Assembly: GCA_018396435.1 (NCBI GenBank)
Contig: JAGTRG010000003.1
Span: 17,490 to 55,325 of the forward strand
Reading direction: 5' to 3'
Length of the DNA stretch: 37,836 nucleotides
DNA from: Candidatus Bathyarchaeota archaeon
GTDB lineage: Archaea; Thermoproteota; Bathyarchaeia; Bathyarchaeales; DTEX01
Positions within the stretch are counted from its first letter, which is position 1. Every line of letters begins with the position of its first letter. Positions 26,754 through 32,104 of the stretch are shown one piece after another. The position numbers and the translations under genes were made by a program. Under the pieces are notes generated by a model. It was not told where the DNA came from. It saw only the letters and a program-made list of their open reading frames with translations, and did not search any database.

Positions 26754-27998
26754 CTATTCTGGAAGAGACATCAAATATTTGGGCTTATAATTAAATATTG
26801 TTTTGAACCTTTCATCTTCGGATAGAACCTCAACAATAACTTTTCGAGGAACCCCTAAGCCTATTTTTTTCGTTCTTCCATAACGACCAAGACTTATCAC
26901 GCGCGAGTTTAGAAGACCTAGGATGTCTAATTCATTTATTAGTCCACTTACTCTTCTTTGGGTTAATGGGCTTACACCTAGTTGCTCACAGATTTCTGAA
27001 TAAAGATTGTATATTTCTCCTGTCATAGAACGGTCAGTATTGAACTTACTGAGAAAATACGCGGTCAAAAGAATAATTTTTGAGTGCGTTGGTAAGCTTT
27101 TTATGGCCTCATACACTTGATCATGTTCAATTCTTTCCTGAGCCTCTCGCACATGAGTTTCAGTTATTTTCTTCTCACCTCTTCGTTCTGCAATCTCACC
27201 AGCAACTCTTAAGAGATCTAGGGCCCTTCTAGCATCACCATGTTCAGCAGCTGCCAAAGCTGCACAGAGTTTAACAGCGCCTTCCGTTAAAACATCGTTA
27301 TAAAACGCTATTTTCGCCCTCTCCATAAGTATATCAAGAAGCTCATCAGCAGTATAGGGTTTAAAAACTATTTCCTCTTCACTCAGCGTACTTAGAACTC
27401 GCGGATCAAGAGACTCTTTAAATTTTAAATCATTTGATATGCCTATAATCGAAACCTTACTTCTTTGAAGATTCTCATTTATTCTTGTAAGTTCATAGAG
27501 AAGAGAATCACCGCGAACCTTGACTAGCGCATCAATCTCATCCAATGCAACAATAAATATTATGCCTTGTGATTCCAGATTTTCTTTGAACCTATCAAAG
27601 ATTTCACCAACAGCTAAACCTGTGAAGGGAACTTTTATGTTTATGTTTGTACATAAAGTTGCAAGAACCCTATATTCGGTTCCAGCCAATCGGCAATTTA
27701 CAAAGCAAACATTCACAGTAGAGCCTAGTTCTTTAGCCTTTTGAGTGAGTTTATTTAATACAAATTTGACAACGGCTGTTTTTCCCGTGCCAGTTTTTCC
27801 ATATATTAAGACATTAGAGCATGGTGAACCGCTTAAGGCAGGAGCAGTTATCTCACCTAAATGAAGGATCTGCTCTTTTCTATGTGGTAGATTATCAGGT
27901 ACGTAATCATGCCTTAATACTTCTCTATTTCTAAAAATTTTAGATCCTTTAAGGAAATGATTGAAAACCTCATCGAGGATATGATCCTGGCTTTTCAT
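26754..27998 (-). CDS. cdc6: Orc1/Cdc6 replication initiator
   Basis: The 414-residue AAA+ initiator binds origin recognition boxes and recruits MCM. Walker A is GKTGTGKT (67-74), Walker B ALDEID (151-156), sensor 1 GISND (186-190) with the following LDPRV (197-201) carrying the initiator Arg region. The lid follows (about 215-290), with EHGDARRALDLLRVAGEIAE as sensor 2. A winged-helix DNA-binding domain covers about 305-400 (MTGEIYNLYSEICEQLGVSP, RRVSGLINELDILGLL). The start is ATG 27998, behind GAGGTTCAATGG. The upstream region holds three ORB-like elements, fitting an initiator next to its own origin. Confidence 0.97.
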   Translation of the reverse strand: MKSQDHILDEVFNHFLKGSKIFRNREVLRHDYVPDNLPHRKEQILHLGEITAPALSGSPCSNVLIYGKTGTGKTAVVKFVLNKLTQKAKELGSTVNVCFVNCRLAGTEYRVLATLCTNINIKVPFTGLAVGEIFDRFKENLESQGIIFIVALDEIDALVKVRGDSLLYELTRINENLQRSKVSIIGISNDLKFKESLDPRVLSTLSEEEIVFKPYTADELLDILMERAKIAFYNDVLTEGAVKLCAALAAAEHGDARRALDLLRVAGEIAERRGEKKITETHVREAQERIEHDQVYEAIKSLPTHSKIILLTAYFLSKFNTDRSMTGEIYNLYSEICEQLGVSPLTQRRVSGLINELDILGLLNSRVISLGRYGRTKKIGLGVPRKVIVEVLSEDERFKTIFNYKPKYLMSLPE

Positions 27999-28112: not shown

Positions 28113-28138
28113 CTCCCACCCCTCCATTTCTATTGGAA
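28113..28138 (-). promoter_or_regulatory. Origin recognition box 1 (ORB-like)
   Basis: Read on the minus strand this 26-mer is TTCCAATAGAAATGGAGGGG followed by TGGGAG. It has the TTCC-N4-GAAA dyad remnant and the G-string of archaeal ORBs. It is the box nearest to cdc6, about 115 bp upstream of its start. Confidence 0.75.
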
Positions 28139-28332
28139 TAGCCTTTAATATGAAAAATTATTATATTTAACAGGAATAGCCTCCCATATGGTTTTAAAAT
28201 ATATATTATTTAATAGAGATTATACAATCTTTTATACAAAACTTCAAAAAAGTATATGGAAAAAATTCATAAAATAGAAGAGTTTTAGAAATTTTCTTAC
28301 TAACAAATTCTTTTTTCAATTAAAATTTTGAA

Positions 28333-28358
28333 CTCCACTAGAAAATAAGGGGTGGGAG
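28333..28358 (+). promoter_or_regulatory. Origin recognition box 2 (ORB-like, opposite orientation)
   Basis: On the plus strand the 26-mer reads CTCCACTAGAAAATAAGGGG followed by TGGGAG. It shares TCCA, TAGAAA and GGGGTGGGAG with box 1 and is inverted relative to boxes 1 and 3, as often seen for boxes flanking an unwinding element. Confidence 0.65.
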
Positions 28359-28512
28359 CATCATCTTAAAAATAATTAGTGCTCTAGTTAAAACCGAGAT
28401 CTTTCACAGACTGTTAATATTTTGTTAATGGCCAATAAAATATTAAAATATTACATGATAATTTTGAATTTTTTCCATTAATATTATCTATTCATTCCTC
28501 TTTTTTGTGAAA

Positions 28513-28538
28513 GACGAACCCCTCTATTTCTATTGGAA
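28513..28538 (-). promoter_or_regulatory. Origin recognition box 3 (ORB-like)
   Basis: On the minus strand it reads TTCCAATAGAAATAGAGGGG followed by TTCGTC. The first 20 bases differ from box 1 at one position. It lies exactly 400 bp from box 1 in the same orientation. Confidence 0.75.
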
Positions 28539-28680
28539 AAAGAAAACGGAAATTTATCTTTCTTATTCTTAAAAAAGATTTAAGATGTTAATATAGTTAA
28601 ACAAAAAATTTATAAACTAATTCTATTTCCCGAAAATAACTTCAATTTTTTGTTTTCTTAAAATGTCATTTCACCGAATA

Positions 28681-28722: not shown

Positions 28723-29142
28723 GTGAATATATCGTTGCCAGTAAGAAAGATGAAAGTTGAAGTTTACGATGAGTCTGGGAATCGATACGTTATTAGCTTT
28801 GAGGGCAGGGTGACTAGGGAAAAGGCCCTTAAAATTTTTGATATGATGGAATTGCTCGGTGGCATACCCTTAGCGGAACCCGTTGAATATCCAAAAGATA
28901 TCTCAAAAATCGAACGGGTTATTCTCCTCATTAAAAAGAACTTTCCCATAGTTTGGTTTACAGCAAAAGAAATTCAAAAAGTTTATGAAAAAGAAATTGG
29001 TGAACCAATAAGCCTTAGTGCTGTTTCAACTTATCTTTCTAGGCTTGCCGATAAAGGAATATTAATGAAGACAAAAAATGCTAATCGCGTAGTTTTTAGG
29101 CTTATATCAAAAGAACTTAAAGAGATTGTGAAGCCTTTTTAG
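28723..29142 (+). CDS. Winged-helix protein beside the origin
   Basis: The 139-residue protein has an N-terminal beta-hairpin region (about 10-30: MKVEVYDESGNRYVISFEGR) and a helix, then a C-terminal winged helix (about 65-130). In the latter FTAKEIQKVYEKEIGEPISL, SAVSTYLSRLADKGILMKTK and VVFRLI form helix-turn-helix, recognition helix and wing. It should bind DNA as a regulator. I cannot name the family. It is transcribed away from the origin and is convergent with the membrane-anchored regulator, 8 bp between stops. Its position recalls winged-helix initiator proteins adjacent to some archaeal origins, but it has only one obvious winged helix. GTG 28723 is probably leaderless; ATG 28750 is an alternative. 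Confidence 0.7.
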   Translation: MNISLPVRKMKVEVYDESGNRYVISFEGRVTREKALKIFDMMELLGGIPLAEPVEYPKDISKIERVILLIKKNFPIVWFTAKEIQKVYEKEIGEPISLSAVSTYLSRLADKGILMKTKNANRVVFRLISKELKEIVKPF

Positions 29143-29150
29143 GAGAAAGA

Positions 29151-29861
29151 TTAAACTTTTTCTTTTCTTTTCAAGAAATTTTCTACATTTTTATTTAAGC
29201 AGTAAACATAGGGGATTTTTTCAGTTCTTCTTTCAACATAACCTCGTGCATATAAGTTTTTCATTAAGCGTGCAGTATGTTCTCTTGTTAATTTAATTCT
29301 ATCTTTTATCTCAGGAACAGTTTTTTCACCCTCCACAGCTAGAAGTTCTAACACTTTTAATTCGGTTTCAGTTAGCGACACTAAAGTTTCGTTCTCTCCT
29401 ACAGCAAAGGCGGAAGATGGTTTTATCTCGGGTAATTCTTCAATTTTTCTTATTTTTTGTTCATTAAGTTTCTCAATTTCATTGATCCTTCTTAAGATTT
29501 CATCATATCTAATAGATATCTCATCGACTTTTCTCTTTAAAACTTCATAATCATTGAAGAAGCGTTCCCTCCAATTAAAAAGGTCCTCAAGCATGCTCTT
29601 AAGATTGCTCATCATTGCATTTATTTCCTCAATTCTCCTAACATTTTCGACAGATTTTCCCTCATAATTTTTGATGATCTCCTGAATTAATTCTTCCTGC
29701 TTCTTTAAATCCTTACTGAAACTATATATTACATCATCAAGCAAGATCTTTGCTTCTCGATGCTTGGTAGTTTCTTCCTTTATTCTTCTTAAGGAAAATA
29801 ATAAAGTAAAAGAAGTAACGCTGAATAAAATAGCATACATGATTAAAATTATGTAATCCAT
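29151..29861 (-). CDS. Membrane-anchored coiled-coil winged-helix regulator
   Basis: The 236-residue protein has one N-terminal transmembrane helix (about 3-24, MDYIILIMYAILFSVTSFTL), basic RRIKEE just after it, a long coiled coil (about 30-145, with LEDLFNWRERFFNDYEVLKR inside) and a C-terminal MarR/TrmB-like winged helix (about 165-225). The latter contains LTETELKVLELLAVEGEKTV, REHTARLMKNLYARGYVERR. Topology would put the DNA-binding domain in the cytoplasm on a coiled-coil stalk of over 100 residues. ATG 29861 follows GTGGTGCCAAG. Its promoter carries GTGAT/ATCAC palindromes between TATA (29941-29955) and start, implying repression, perhaps by itself. Function unknown; a membrane-bound one-component sensor or a DNA tether are options. 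Confidence 0.75.
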   Translation of the reverse strand: MDYIILIMYAILFSVTSFTLLFSLRRIKEETTKHREAKILLDDVIYSFSKDLKKQEELIQEIIKNYEGKSVENVRRIEEINAMMSNLKSMLEDLFNWRERFFNDYEVLKRKVDEISIRYDEILRRINEIEKLNEQKIRKIEELPEIKPSSAFAVGENETLVSLTETELKVLELLAVEGEKTVPEIKDRIKLTREHTARLMKNLYARGYVERRTEKIPYVYCLNKNVENFLKRKEKV

Positions 29862-29875
29862 CTTGGCACCACTTT

Positions 29876-29935
29876 TGTGACATCACATGTAACGTGATCC
29901 ATATGGATCACATCTTTATCACATAATATCACGTT
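29876..29935. promoter_or_regulatory. Operator cluster A: GTGAT/ATCAC palindromes
   Basis: Within 60 bp lie TGTGACATCACA (29876-29887), the perfect 18-bp palindrome GTGATCCATATGGATCAC (29894-29911), another ATCAC at 29919-29923 and ATCACGTT (29928-29935), which mirrors AACGTGAT (29891-29898). The cluster sits between the TATA box at 29941-29955 and ATG 29861, where bound protein would block RNA polymerase recruitment or clearance. Confidence 0.7.
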
Positions 29936-29940
29936 GGAAC

Positions 29941-29955
29941 ATTTAAATATATTTT
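29941..29955 (-). promoter_or_regulatory. TATA box of the membrane-anchored regulator gene
   Basis: AAATATATTTAAAT on the minus strand, about 85-90 bases before ATG 29861. The predicted transcript start near 29920 falls inside operator cluster A. Confidence 0.5.
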
Positions 29956-30010
29956 TCTTTTTTCGTTTATTGAAGGCTTTAAAATGTTATTTCAGGTTCT
30001 ATTTAATATC

Positions 30011-30043
30011 GTGATGTCACAAGTCACGTGATTATGATATCAC
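30011..30043. promoter_or_regulatory. Operator cluster B: GTGAT/ATCAC palindromes
   Basis: GTGATGTCAC (30011-30020), the perfect palindrome TCACGTGA (30024-30031) and GTGAT-N6-ATCAC (30028-30043) are packed in 33 bp. The cluster overlaps the stop codon of the HTH-like gene and lies about 55 bp upstream of the TATA box at 29941-29955, so it probably acts on the membrane-anchored regulator gene together with cluster A. Confidence 0.6.
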
Positions 30044-30579
30044 AGTTTGCCAGACATAGATCTGGGCTTAGATAGATTTAGTAATCCTTTTTCTATTTCG
30101 TCTTGAAGAGTTTTTATTATTTTTATCTGATCCTCGCTAATTTTTCCATTCTCCCAGAGACTTCGATATTTTTCGCTGTATATGCGAATCCGGTTTGAAA
30201 TTTCTATGTAAGGATTTAGACGTGGATCATCAAAAATGCCCAAATATCCTAAAAGTATAACTGTGTAAATCGATCTGATAACATTTCTTCTTGCCTGTGC
30301 TAATGTTCTATTAAAAGAGCCGCGACTTACACCAGATTTTATTAATCTTAACTTCGCCTTATTCTCATAAACTATTTTCTTATCACTTATTTTTTCGGCT
30401 AAAATATCTATTAAAAGAGTTTCCGCCTGCACTTTTGTTAAATTGCTGTTTTTAAGCAGTATTTTGAAGAGCGGATCCTTATTTAGGCTAATTAACCACT
30501 TCTGAATTCCATCTTTTATTTCTAAACCGCTCAACTCTTTAAACCTCCTATTTGAATACAAAATTGTATACGGCAACAT
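30040..30579 (-). CDS. Uncharacterised HTH-like protein
   Basis: I do not recognise the family. The 179-residue, largely helical, basic protein has a candidate helix-turn-helix at about 85-125: LRLIKSGVSRGSFNRTLAQA then RRNVIRSIYTVILLGYLG. The SGVSRGSFNRTL stretch looks like a turn and recognition helix. The N-terminus (about 20-75) is also helical (TKVQAETLLIDILAEKISDK). No signal peptide. The gene is flanked by operator clusters B (overlapping its stop) and C (about 50-90 bp before its start), and a TATA-like GGTTAAATTAGG lies at 30602-30613. It is a reasonable candidate for the protein that reads the GTGAT/ATCAC sites, by location only. Confidence 0.55.
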   Translation of the reverse strand: MLPYTILYSNRRFKELSGLEIKDGIQKWLISLNKDPLFKILLKNSNLTKVQAETLLIDILAEKISDKKIVYENKAKLRLIKSGVSRGSFNRTLAQARRNVIRSIYTVILLGYLGIFDDPRLNPYIEISNRIRIYSEKYRSLWENGKISEDQIKIIKTLQDEIEKGLLNLSKPRSMSGKL

Positions 30580-30630
30580 TTGCTAAAGATTTTCTTCCAT
30601 TCCTAATTTAACCATTACTGTGAGGCAAAT

Positions 30631-30669
30631 GTGATATTGTTGTGATTAAGCTACGTGATTCAAAATCAC
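30631..30669. promoter_or_regulatory. Operator cluster C: GTGAT repeats upstream of elf1 and the HTH-like gene
   Basis: GTGAT occurs at 30631, 30642 and 30655, spaced 11 and 13 bases, and the last forms GTGATTCAAAATCAC with ATCAC at 30665-30669. It lies in the divergent promoter between the HTH-like gene (minus, start 30579) and elf1 (plus, TATA at 30694-30704), upstream of both TATA boxes, a position suited to activation or shared control. Confidence 0.6.
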
Positions 30670-30741
30670 AAATCTTCAGTCTTTGATATACCTAAATATT
30701 TAAGTGTATTATCCACAATAAAAATTTATGCTGGGTTCAAG

Positions 30742-30990
30742 ATGGGAAGAAGACGTAGAAAAGTAGTTCGTATACCGAAGAAGAAGCTACCTAAGGTTTT
30801 CCTATGTCCAAAATGCAGTCAAGAATCTATAAGAGTTGAATTTTTTGAGGAAGATGTTGGTGAAAAGAAAGCTGTAATCAAATGTGGCAATATCAATTGC
30901 GGTTACTCCAGGGAGATAAAGGTGAAACCATTTTTTAAGGAAGTAGACGCCTACTGCCAATTTATAGATGAATTTTATAAAGCATCCTAA
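30742..30990 (+). CDS. Transcription elongation factor Elf1-like zinc-ribbon protein
   Basis: From ATG 30742 the 82-residue protein begins [20 protein letters not shown], the basic N-terminal tail of archaeal Elf1. A four-Cys zinc ribbon follows, LCPKCSQES ... KCGNINCGY, and then the conserved ending [13 protein letters not shown]. Elf1 binds the RNA polymerase elongation complex near the DNA entry channel. An upstream ATG in frame at 30655 would add 29 residues unlike the family; the TATA box AAATATTTAAG at 30694-30704 lies downstream of it, so 30742 is the real start. The gene shares its direction with GGGP synthase, 17 bp away. Confidence 0.9.
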
Positions 30991-31007: not shown

Positions 31008-31796
31008 ATGGTTGGAAAGGTTGAAGGCTATCTTTTGAAGAAAATTCTTAATGAAAGAGCGATTCATATAACACTTATTGATCCAGAAAAGATGTCTGAT
31101 GAGTTCGCTGCCTTCATATCATCTGAAAGTGAATCATTAGGGTCTTCAGCTATAATGATCGGCGGCACAACTTTTGTGTCACCGAATGCTCTTGACAACA
31201 TGGTAAGAACAATTAAAGAATCTGCGAGCATTCCTATAATATTATTCCCAAATAATGTAACTGGTATAAGTAAATATGCTGACGCAATATGGTTTATGTC
31301 TCTTCTCAATTCAGCCGACCCATATTTTATAATTGGCGCGCAAGTGCTAGCGGCGCCATTAATTAAAAAGTTTGGTTTAGAGGCGATACCACTAGGATAT
31401 ATAATAGTTGGTGAAGGTGGATCTGCGGGCATTATCGGAAAGGCATTTCCAATACCCTACGACAAGCCTGAGCTGGCAGGTGCTCATGCATTGGCCGCTC
31501 AATTTCTCGGAATGAGATTTATTTATTTAGAAGCTGGATCAGGCGCAAAATATCCAGTTCCCTCAGAAATGATTAAGATTGTTAAGAACGCTATAAATAT
31601 GCCACTTATTGTAGGTGGGGGCATAAAAACCGGGGAGCAAGCTAAACAAATAGTGAGTGCCGGGGCTGATATAGTGGTTACTGGCACAGTAACTGAAATG
31701 GGTAAAAAGGAAGAAGTTAAAAGTAAACTTATGGAAATAATTAATGGTGTAAAAGAGGGAGCAAAAAGTAAGATTAAGGAGTTGAATTTATCTTGA
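31008..31796 (+). CDS. Geranylgeranylglyceryl phosphate synthase
   Basis: The 262-residue TIM-barrel enzyme condenses geranylgeranyl diphosphate with sn-glycerol-1-phosphate, the first ether bond of archaeal lipids. Family signatures: HITLIDPEKMS (21-31), IMIGGTTFVSP (49-59), IILFPNNVTGISKYADAIWF (76-95), YIIVGEGGSAG, FIYLEAGSGAKYPVP (about 170-184) and the phosphate-binding loops VGGGIKTGEQA and GADIVVTGT. Start ATG 31008 follows GAGGGTC. The downstream four-Cys gene overlaps its stop by four bases (TTGA), and the PolD large subunit follows, an operon elf1-GGGPS-small protein-polC. Confidence 0.95.
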   Translation: MVGKVEGYLLKKILNERAIHITLIDPEKMSDEFAAFISSESESLGSSAIMIGGTTFVSPNALDNMVRTIKESASIPIILFPNNVTGISKYADAIWFMSLLNSADPYFIIGAQVLAAPLIKKFGLEAIPLGYIIVGEGGSAGIIGKAFPIPYDKPELAGAHALAAQFLGMRFIYLEAGSGAKYPVPSEMIKIVKNAINMPLIVGGGIKTGEQAKQIVSAGADIVVTGTVTEMGKKEEVKSKLMEIINGVKEGAKSKIKELNLS

Positions 31797-32104
31797 CAGC
31801 ATTTGAGCAATATTTTGAATCCCTTAAGAAAATATTGGGAAGAGATGATATATACGATATATGGCCAGATTTCGAGCCCGAATATGATGAACGAGAGTAT
31901 GCCTGGACAACCCTAAGAGGTTTAGGAGAATCTCTATTGCTAAACTGTGGGCAGTGTGAAGGCCCCTCTGATATGAGACATAACAAATGTAGAGTGTGCG
32001 TTGAAAGAAGAAAGGAAATAGCTAGAAAAACCTACGAGAAAGTTATGGGGCGTCCAATAGAGAAGTGGAACGCTGTAATACTATGTCGAATTCACATCGA
32101 ATAG
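31793..32104 (+). CDS. Four-cysteine small protein between GGGPS and PolD
   Basis: The 103-residue protein starts at TTG 31793, overlapping the GGGPS stop as TTGA. I do not know the family. It has an acidic, aromatic N-terminal half (DIYDIWPDFEPEYDEREYAW at about 19-38) and a zinc-finger-like core NCGQC (52-55) with CRVC (66-69), embedded in GPSDMRHNKC and followed by basic ERRKEIARKTYEKVMGRP. The Cys spacing C-x2-C-x10-C-x2-C would bind one zinc. The 10-bp gap to polC and overlap with GGGPS make translation in one operon likely; a role with PolD, for example as accessory factor, is only suggested by position. Confidence 0.65.
   Translation: MTAFEQYFESLKKILGRDDIYDIWPDFEPEYDEREYAWTTLRGLGESLLLNCGQCEGPSDMRHNKCRVCVERRKEIARKTYEKVMGRPIEKWNAVILCRIHIE

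Follow-up and report, generated by a model that had tools for sequence, protein, structure and literature searches.

A conserved half-site array beside a predicted replication origin in Bathyarchaeia and its likely reader, a putative membrane-anchored winged-helix protein

Three dense clusters of the pentamers GTGAT and ATCAC lie next to one another in a replication gene island of a Bathyarchaeia genome, and they raise the question of which protein reads them and what this reading would achieve. The question is of interest because the positioning and segregation of origins in most archaea outside the Sulfolobales are poorly known. In this study, the clusters (A, B and C) were analyzed in a stretch of 37,836 nucleotides, referred to here as the window, which derives from a Bathyarchaeia assembly of 1.39 Mb in 91 contigs, and were compared with the corresponding loci of relatives in the genus, the class and the phylum. 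The genes concerned are those of the proposed binder, REG, of the 179-residue protein P179 and of their neighbours (Table 1). Transcription start sites were guessed from TATA-like sequences.

Table 1. Coordinates of the half-site clusters and neighbouring features in the window
Feature	Positions	Strand	Description
Cluster A	29876-29935	none	Array between the REG TATA-like box and the REG start codon; from the sequence and comparison within genus and class
Cluster B	30011-30045	none	Upstream of the REG TATA-like box; overlaps the P179 stop codon
Cluster C	30625-30672	none	Half-sites upstream of P179, in the window between P179 and elf1
REG TATA-like element	29942-29953	-	ATATATTTAAAT; from the sequence
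REG	29151-29861	-	N-terminal transmembrane helix, coiled-coil-like region and C-terminal TrmB/MarR-type winged helix (predicted); proposed binder of A-C
P179	30040-30534	-	Single-copy all-helical protein with HTH-like SRGAFNRTLxQAR segment; likely TTG start
elf1	30745-30990	+	Elf1-like zinc ribbon; neighbour, probably no target
139-aa wHTH-like protein	28723-29142	+	Conserved island member, next to REG in the window
Predicted oriC	28127-28555	none	Three ORB-like elements and the AT-rich DNA that they surround, in the gap between cdc6 and the gene for the 139-aa wHTH-like protein
Orc1/Cdc6 initiator gene	26754-27998	-	Cdc6_lid 8.6e-28, Cdc6_C 2.2e-27

Cluster A comprises GTGACATCAC at 29877-29886, the perfect 18-mer GTGATCCATATGGATCAC (GTGAT-N8-ATCAC) at 29894-29911 and two more ATCAC pentamers at 29918 and 29928, and is flanked by the TATA-like stretch (~29942-29953, minus strand) and by the ATG at 29861, so that it spans the presumed REG transcription start. 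Cluster B is built from GTGATGTCAC at 30011-30020 and GTGATTATGATATCAC at 30028-30043, the latter extending onto the stop codon of the P179 frame, while cluster C contains GTGAT at 30631, 30642 and 30655 and ATCAC at 30665. The clusters hold five, three and four GTGAT/ATCAC pentamers, respectively, where 0.04-0.07 would be expected for each, giving a total of 12 against approximately 0.2. When the pentamers were relaxed, no more than two were found per 60 bp anywhere else in the window, and the maximum in 200 Markov-simulated windows was four. The clusters are thereby confirmed as real, and a preliminary description of the DNA was correct as to their coordinates and anatomy, the perfect 18-bp palindrome in A and the placement of A between TATA-like box and ATG, of B upstream of that box and of C between the P179 and elf1 genes. 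Within the genus, conservation of the 18-mer is limited to its outer arms, and its core, CCATATGG, is common to the two nearest relatives only.

The sites are kept in relatives, a check that had been proposed at the outset. Among 41 close genomes P179 is present in 28 and REG in 27, and the P179-REG gap contains sites at all 19 of the loci inspected. A wider scan covered 80 Bathyarchaeia loci, 78 of which were testable, the remainder stopping at a contig edge; REG follows P179 directly in every one of these 78, and each gap carries at least one GTGAYRTCAC. The density of pentamers in the gap is 24.9 per kb (0.9 in the reversed control), compared with 8.5 per kb over the 500 bp that precede P179, and the remaining genes and outer flanks have 0.7-2.1 per kb. 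The layout also recurs across the class: B sits at the stop codon of P179, A precedes the start of REG, and C is found 0.1-0.65 kb upstream of P179. Nearly all class loci, and several more distant ones, have a GTGAYRTCAC immediately after the stop codon of P179; cluster A is placed in genus members as in the window, and in most class loci a cluster precedes the start of REG. In distant genomes, sites occur directly upstream of REG or within its first codons. The array is conserved through the whole class and, more loosely, through the phylum. In another order of the class, the array at three loci (L168, L172 and L184) includes GTGACGTCAC palindromes, which recur in several positions ahead of REG.

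The half-site consensus is TGTGAY, and the half-sites are spaced at discrete offsets, direct ones of 7 bp (212 cases) and 11 bp (89) and palindromic ones of 5 bp (102) and 12 bp (96). The discrete 5-, 7- and 11-bp offsets indicate more than one plain dimer operator. Consequently, of the cooperative dimeric binder that had been envisaged, the cooperativity is suggested by the multiplicity of sites, whereas the term dimeric finds no support in these offsets. Two known types of site were also considered and rejected. A CRP-type operator, TGTGA-N6-TCACA, does not fit, as start-to-start distances of GTGAN-NTCAC peak at 5 and 12 and the CRP-like distance of 9 has zero cases. Nor are these ORB sites of Orc1/Cdc6, since clusters A-C are without the core TCCANTRGAAA...GGGG and the ORB-like elements lie separately at 28127-28555.

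The protein most likely to read these half-sites is encoded at the locus itself. All 18 REG sequences that were aligned have a hydrophobic helix at the N terminus, where the 19-residue hydropathy maximum is 1.0-2.7 (above 2 in 16 of the 18) and the remainder of the protein reaches 1.1 at most; a variable, long and coiled-coil-like middle region follows. The winged helix of the window's REG matches both PF01978 (TrmB; 32.1 bits, cut-off 25.6) and PF01047 (MarR; 31.0 bits, cut-off 24.6), two Pfam families that match 18 of 18 members, and a weak NCBIfam similarity to Lrs14 was also found. The Pfam matches of REG and its relatives include no TrmB sugar-binding regulatory domain, and Pfam and NCBIfam gave winged-helix matches only, with none to a ParB or SegB family. 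Judged by its sequence, REG thus combines a transmembrane helix and a DNA-binding domain in one protein, as membrane-bound one-component regulators do.

P179 is the other local candidate. It very likely starts at the TTG at 30532-30534, behind AGGAGG, rather than at the ATG at 30577-30579, because the upstream frame contains stop codons in several relatives. The stretch at 30532-30579 holds a GTATAC-containing element, TTTTGTATAC (plus strand), that is conserved in most relatives and non-coding in several. Of 398 genomes sampled from the phylum, 160 encode P179, as a single copy, and the protein has no relative in Pfam, NCBIfam or the PDB. Its fold was predicted poorly in a first model (pTM 0.52) and better in a second (pTM 0.73), and neither model gave a convincing PDB match.

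Genomes that retain P179 without REG bear on the choice between the two. Several such genomes exist, and in four of them (G065, G080, G245 and G187; 96-100% complete) no convincing REG was found anywhere; these have 1-4 half-sites in the 710 bp after P179. Across 38 distant loci, the number of half-sites per 710 bp averages 10.1 where REG is adjacent and 2.9 where it is not, against a background of approximately 1.7 (p = 2e-5, a value that overstates independence because the loci are related by descent). The strict perfect palindrome in the distant set, at 11 of 25 REG-adjacent loci and two of 13 others, does not differ significantly (p = 0.15); the palindrome alone fails to separate the groups because AOA-like genomes are rich in half-sites but have no perfect palindrome. 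Two genomes, G048 and G053, have few sites despite an adjacent REG, and one palindrome is kept without adjacent REG in G062, where REG is rearranged, and in G085, where the search for REG was less than genome-wide. The presence of sites in distant genomes goes with REG and not with P179. As sites fall near background where REG has been lost and P179 stays, REG is the likely binder, in line with the earlier expectation of a locally encoded protein. Binding by P179 could be argued from the very conserved HTH-like segment and from the position of B, which adjoins the P179 stop across the class; however, P179 persists in genomes with neither REG nor sites, and in distant genomes the sites are located in the leader of REG and among its first codons. 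P179 is therefore disfavoured, and its being the binder in place of REG appears improbable.

Cluster C offers a view of the selection acting on the array. At 24 class loci an aminotransferase gene stands between P179 and elf1, and C falls inside its reading frame. The codons over the element are nearly fixed: Val is GTG in 24 of 24 and Ser is TCA in 24 of 24, Ile is ATC in 21 of 21, and another Ser TCA and another Val GTG are present in nearly all loci. Codon entropy along the entire gene is lowest in windows that overlap C (0.65 versus 1.29 bits). Furthermore, the C region holds 4-6 pentamers in the 24 adjacent aminotransferases, compared with 0-1 in 26 non-adjacent relatives elsewhere in the genomes, and loci without an aminotransferase have a C element of identical build in non-coding DNA. 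The near-fixed codons, the entropy minimum and the motif-free non-adjacent relatives indicate that the element is selected as DNA; C is under nucleotide-level selection within a coding sequence. The encoded residues at C are K-S-R-V in adjacent aminotransferases and mostly K-T-R-A/M/L in non-adjacent ones, a difference that accommodates the DNA sites at L153:4678-6070 and 23 further loci. Cluster C in the aminotransferase gene is a clear case in which a DNA-binding array reshapes a neighbouring protein.

These loci also speak to the suggestion that C controls elf1, which was prompted by the window, in which C separates P179 from elf1. C and elf1 adjoin in only some families, that of the window among them. 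At the other class loci C lies 0.4-0.65 kb upstream of P179, often in the aminotransferase gene, with elf1 several kilobases away, and in two genus members in which elf1 is adjacent (G003 and G008) the P179-elf1 gap is free of C sites. Since C is found within the aminotransferase reading frame in 24 relatives, it is unlikely to be an elf1 operator, and control of elf1 through C is very hard to credit.

Targets away from the locus were sought with a composite motif, GTGAYRTCAC followed by ATCAC within 12 bases. In 21 genomes this motif was matched 31 times, each time at the REG-P179 locus, with zero in the control. Single GTGAYRTCAC sequences outside the locus number 32 against 36 in the reversed control (14 genomes, in-locus matches being counted by hand). 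The genome scan by which a regulon was to be defined therefore gave no sites above chance outside the locus and, with every composite match at one locus, there is no detectable regulon; scattered weak single sites may exist outside it. A specific cluster of sites near an origin, with the composite motif nowhere else in the 21 genomes, is what partition-type sites display.

The origin in question is marked in the window by ORB-like elements at 28127 (minus strand), 28333 (plus strand) and 28527 (minus strand), which place the beginning of the arrays 1.3-1.8 kb from the predicted origin. ORB-like core k-mers occur in the cdc6-wHTH gap (~800 bp) at 46 of 68 class loci. In the phylum sample, the order of the island is DP2 - GGGP synthase - (Elf1) - P179 - REG - 139-aa wHTH - Cdc6 - DP1. 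The 139-aa wHTH-like protein is conserved in this island across the phylum beside the predicted origin, and its Pfam matches are weak and below cut-off. A conserved 103-aa cysteine-containing protein with no significant Pfam match is encoded at 31793-32104, upstream of the PolD large subunit.

The reading preferred here, which is considered probable, is that cooperative binding of REG to A, B and C represses the REG gene and keeps this stretch of DNA near the origin in a loop tethered to the membrane; binding, autorepression, looping and tethering are all steps that we infer. REG would be a single-pass membrane protein whose coiled-coil-like stalk carries a cytoplasmic TrmB/MarR-type winged helix that reads the half-site TGTGAY. 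It would occupy all three arrays: A, over the presumed start of REG transcription and the leader; B, at the stop codon of P179; and C, which lies upstream of that gene. On A it would block REG transcription and so act as an autorepressor, and B and C would be auxiliary sites, with REG oligomers linked by their coiled coils closing a loop of ~0.7-1.4 kb that carries P179. As REG is predicted to reside in the membrane and no other arrays are detectable, the segment beside oriC may by this proposal be held at the membrane.

A cooperative local operator can do without membrane tethering, and the array may serve ordinary autorepression with auxiliary operators, in which the anchor would respond to a signal from the membrane or the cell cycle, expression of REG and P179 would be the sole output, and there would be no structural role. 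The position of A on the start site and leader agrees with this account, as does the tracking of REG by the sites, and looping to auxiliary operators 0.4-1 kb away is familiar in bacterial repressors. It would, however, require selection to have reshaped the neighbouring aminotransferase protein for the sake of just two regulated genes, and it is given a substantial but less than even chance. The alternative at the other extreme is that A-C form a centromere-like array for which REG is the membrane anchor, and that autorepression comes second, as it does in the partition loci of plasmids and chromosomes. Because the origin-proximal site is the only detectable target, which would be odd for an ordinary transcription factor, a role in origin holding or segregation is plausible; there is a single site array per genome, in the window it lies 1.3-1.8 kb from the ORB elements, it belongs to the conserved DP2-Elf1-P179-REG-wHTH-Cdc6-DP1 island, REG is membrane-anchored as far as its sequence tells, and C is kept in an unrelated open reading frame 0.5-0.6 kb from P179, beyond simple promoter control. 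Against this, no ParA/SegA-type gene was recognised among the conserved island neighbours, and ParA-like genes occur elsewhere in the genomes irrespective of REG. The absence of REG and P179 from some near-complete genomes makes the system dispensable, with loss in some lineages; the placement of A suits plain autorepression, and in G032, a single-contig relative, GC skew was noisy and placed no origin. Anchoring or partition as the main function is thus rather unlikely. The broader form of the idea, a phylum-widespread origin-tethering or partition system in which a winged-helix membrane protein would pin a centromere-like array to the membrane with no adjacent ParA-type ATPase, is put forward tentatively and with more doubt than confidence.

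REG is a concrete candidate for a factor that positions or segregates an origin, being a predicted membrane-anchored DNA-binding protein whose sole detectable array, beside a cdc6 origin, is conserved in the class and recurs through the phylum. If autoregulation alone is at work, the locus still provides a widely conserved and apparently undescribed operator and regulator in a replication gene island; no description of the REG-P179-array module was found in the literature searched, which comprised open-licence papers. REG resembles transmembrane transcription regulators and membrane-bound one-component regulators such as ArnR/ArnR1 and CadC/ToxR (PMC10269533; PMC6396743) in having a DNA-binding domain and a transmembrane helix in one polypeptide and, by prediction, in acting on DNA from the membrane. 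It differs in its anchor, an extreme N-terminal helix that precedes a coiled-coil-like stalk and a C-terminal winged helix, in having no visible sensor domain, and in having sites detectable only at its own origin-proximal locus. The main text of a survey of such regulators (PMC10269533) mentions neither Bathyarchaeota nor Thaumarchaeota nor MarR. With TrmB, MarR and Lrs14-type regulators REG shares the winged-helix domain, but it bears a membrane helix and stalk, no TrmB sugar-binding part was found in it, and its sites are multiple pentamers at 5-, 7- and 11-bp offsets instead of one palindrome.

Among partition systems, ParABS and SegAB (PMC12284271) likewise rely on a protein that binds DNA at specific sites located close to its own genes. 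The parS sites cluster at origins, and the palindromes that SegB recognises are found upstream of segAB; SegB may also be tethered to the membrane (PMC12284271). REG, in contrast, appears to be a winged-helix membrane protein, neither a ParB nor an RHH SegB, and its conserved island is without an ATPase; SegB sites are scattered over the chromosome, whereas the REG arrays are at one locus. Finally, the locus belongs with the archaeal replication islands around cdc6 and oriC described in a 2008 genomic context analysis (PMC2643942), in which the terms helix-turn-helix, transcriptional regulator and membrane protein are not used, and with the origins reviewed elsewhere (PMC4010727). Like these, it brings together cdc6, the PolD subunits and an ORB-type origin; it differs from them in an extra REG-P179-wHTH module that has a non-ORB site array of its own.
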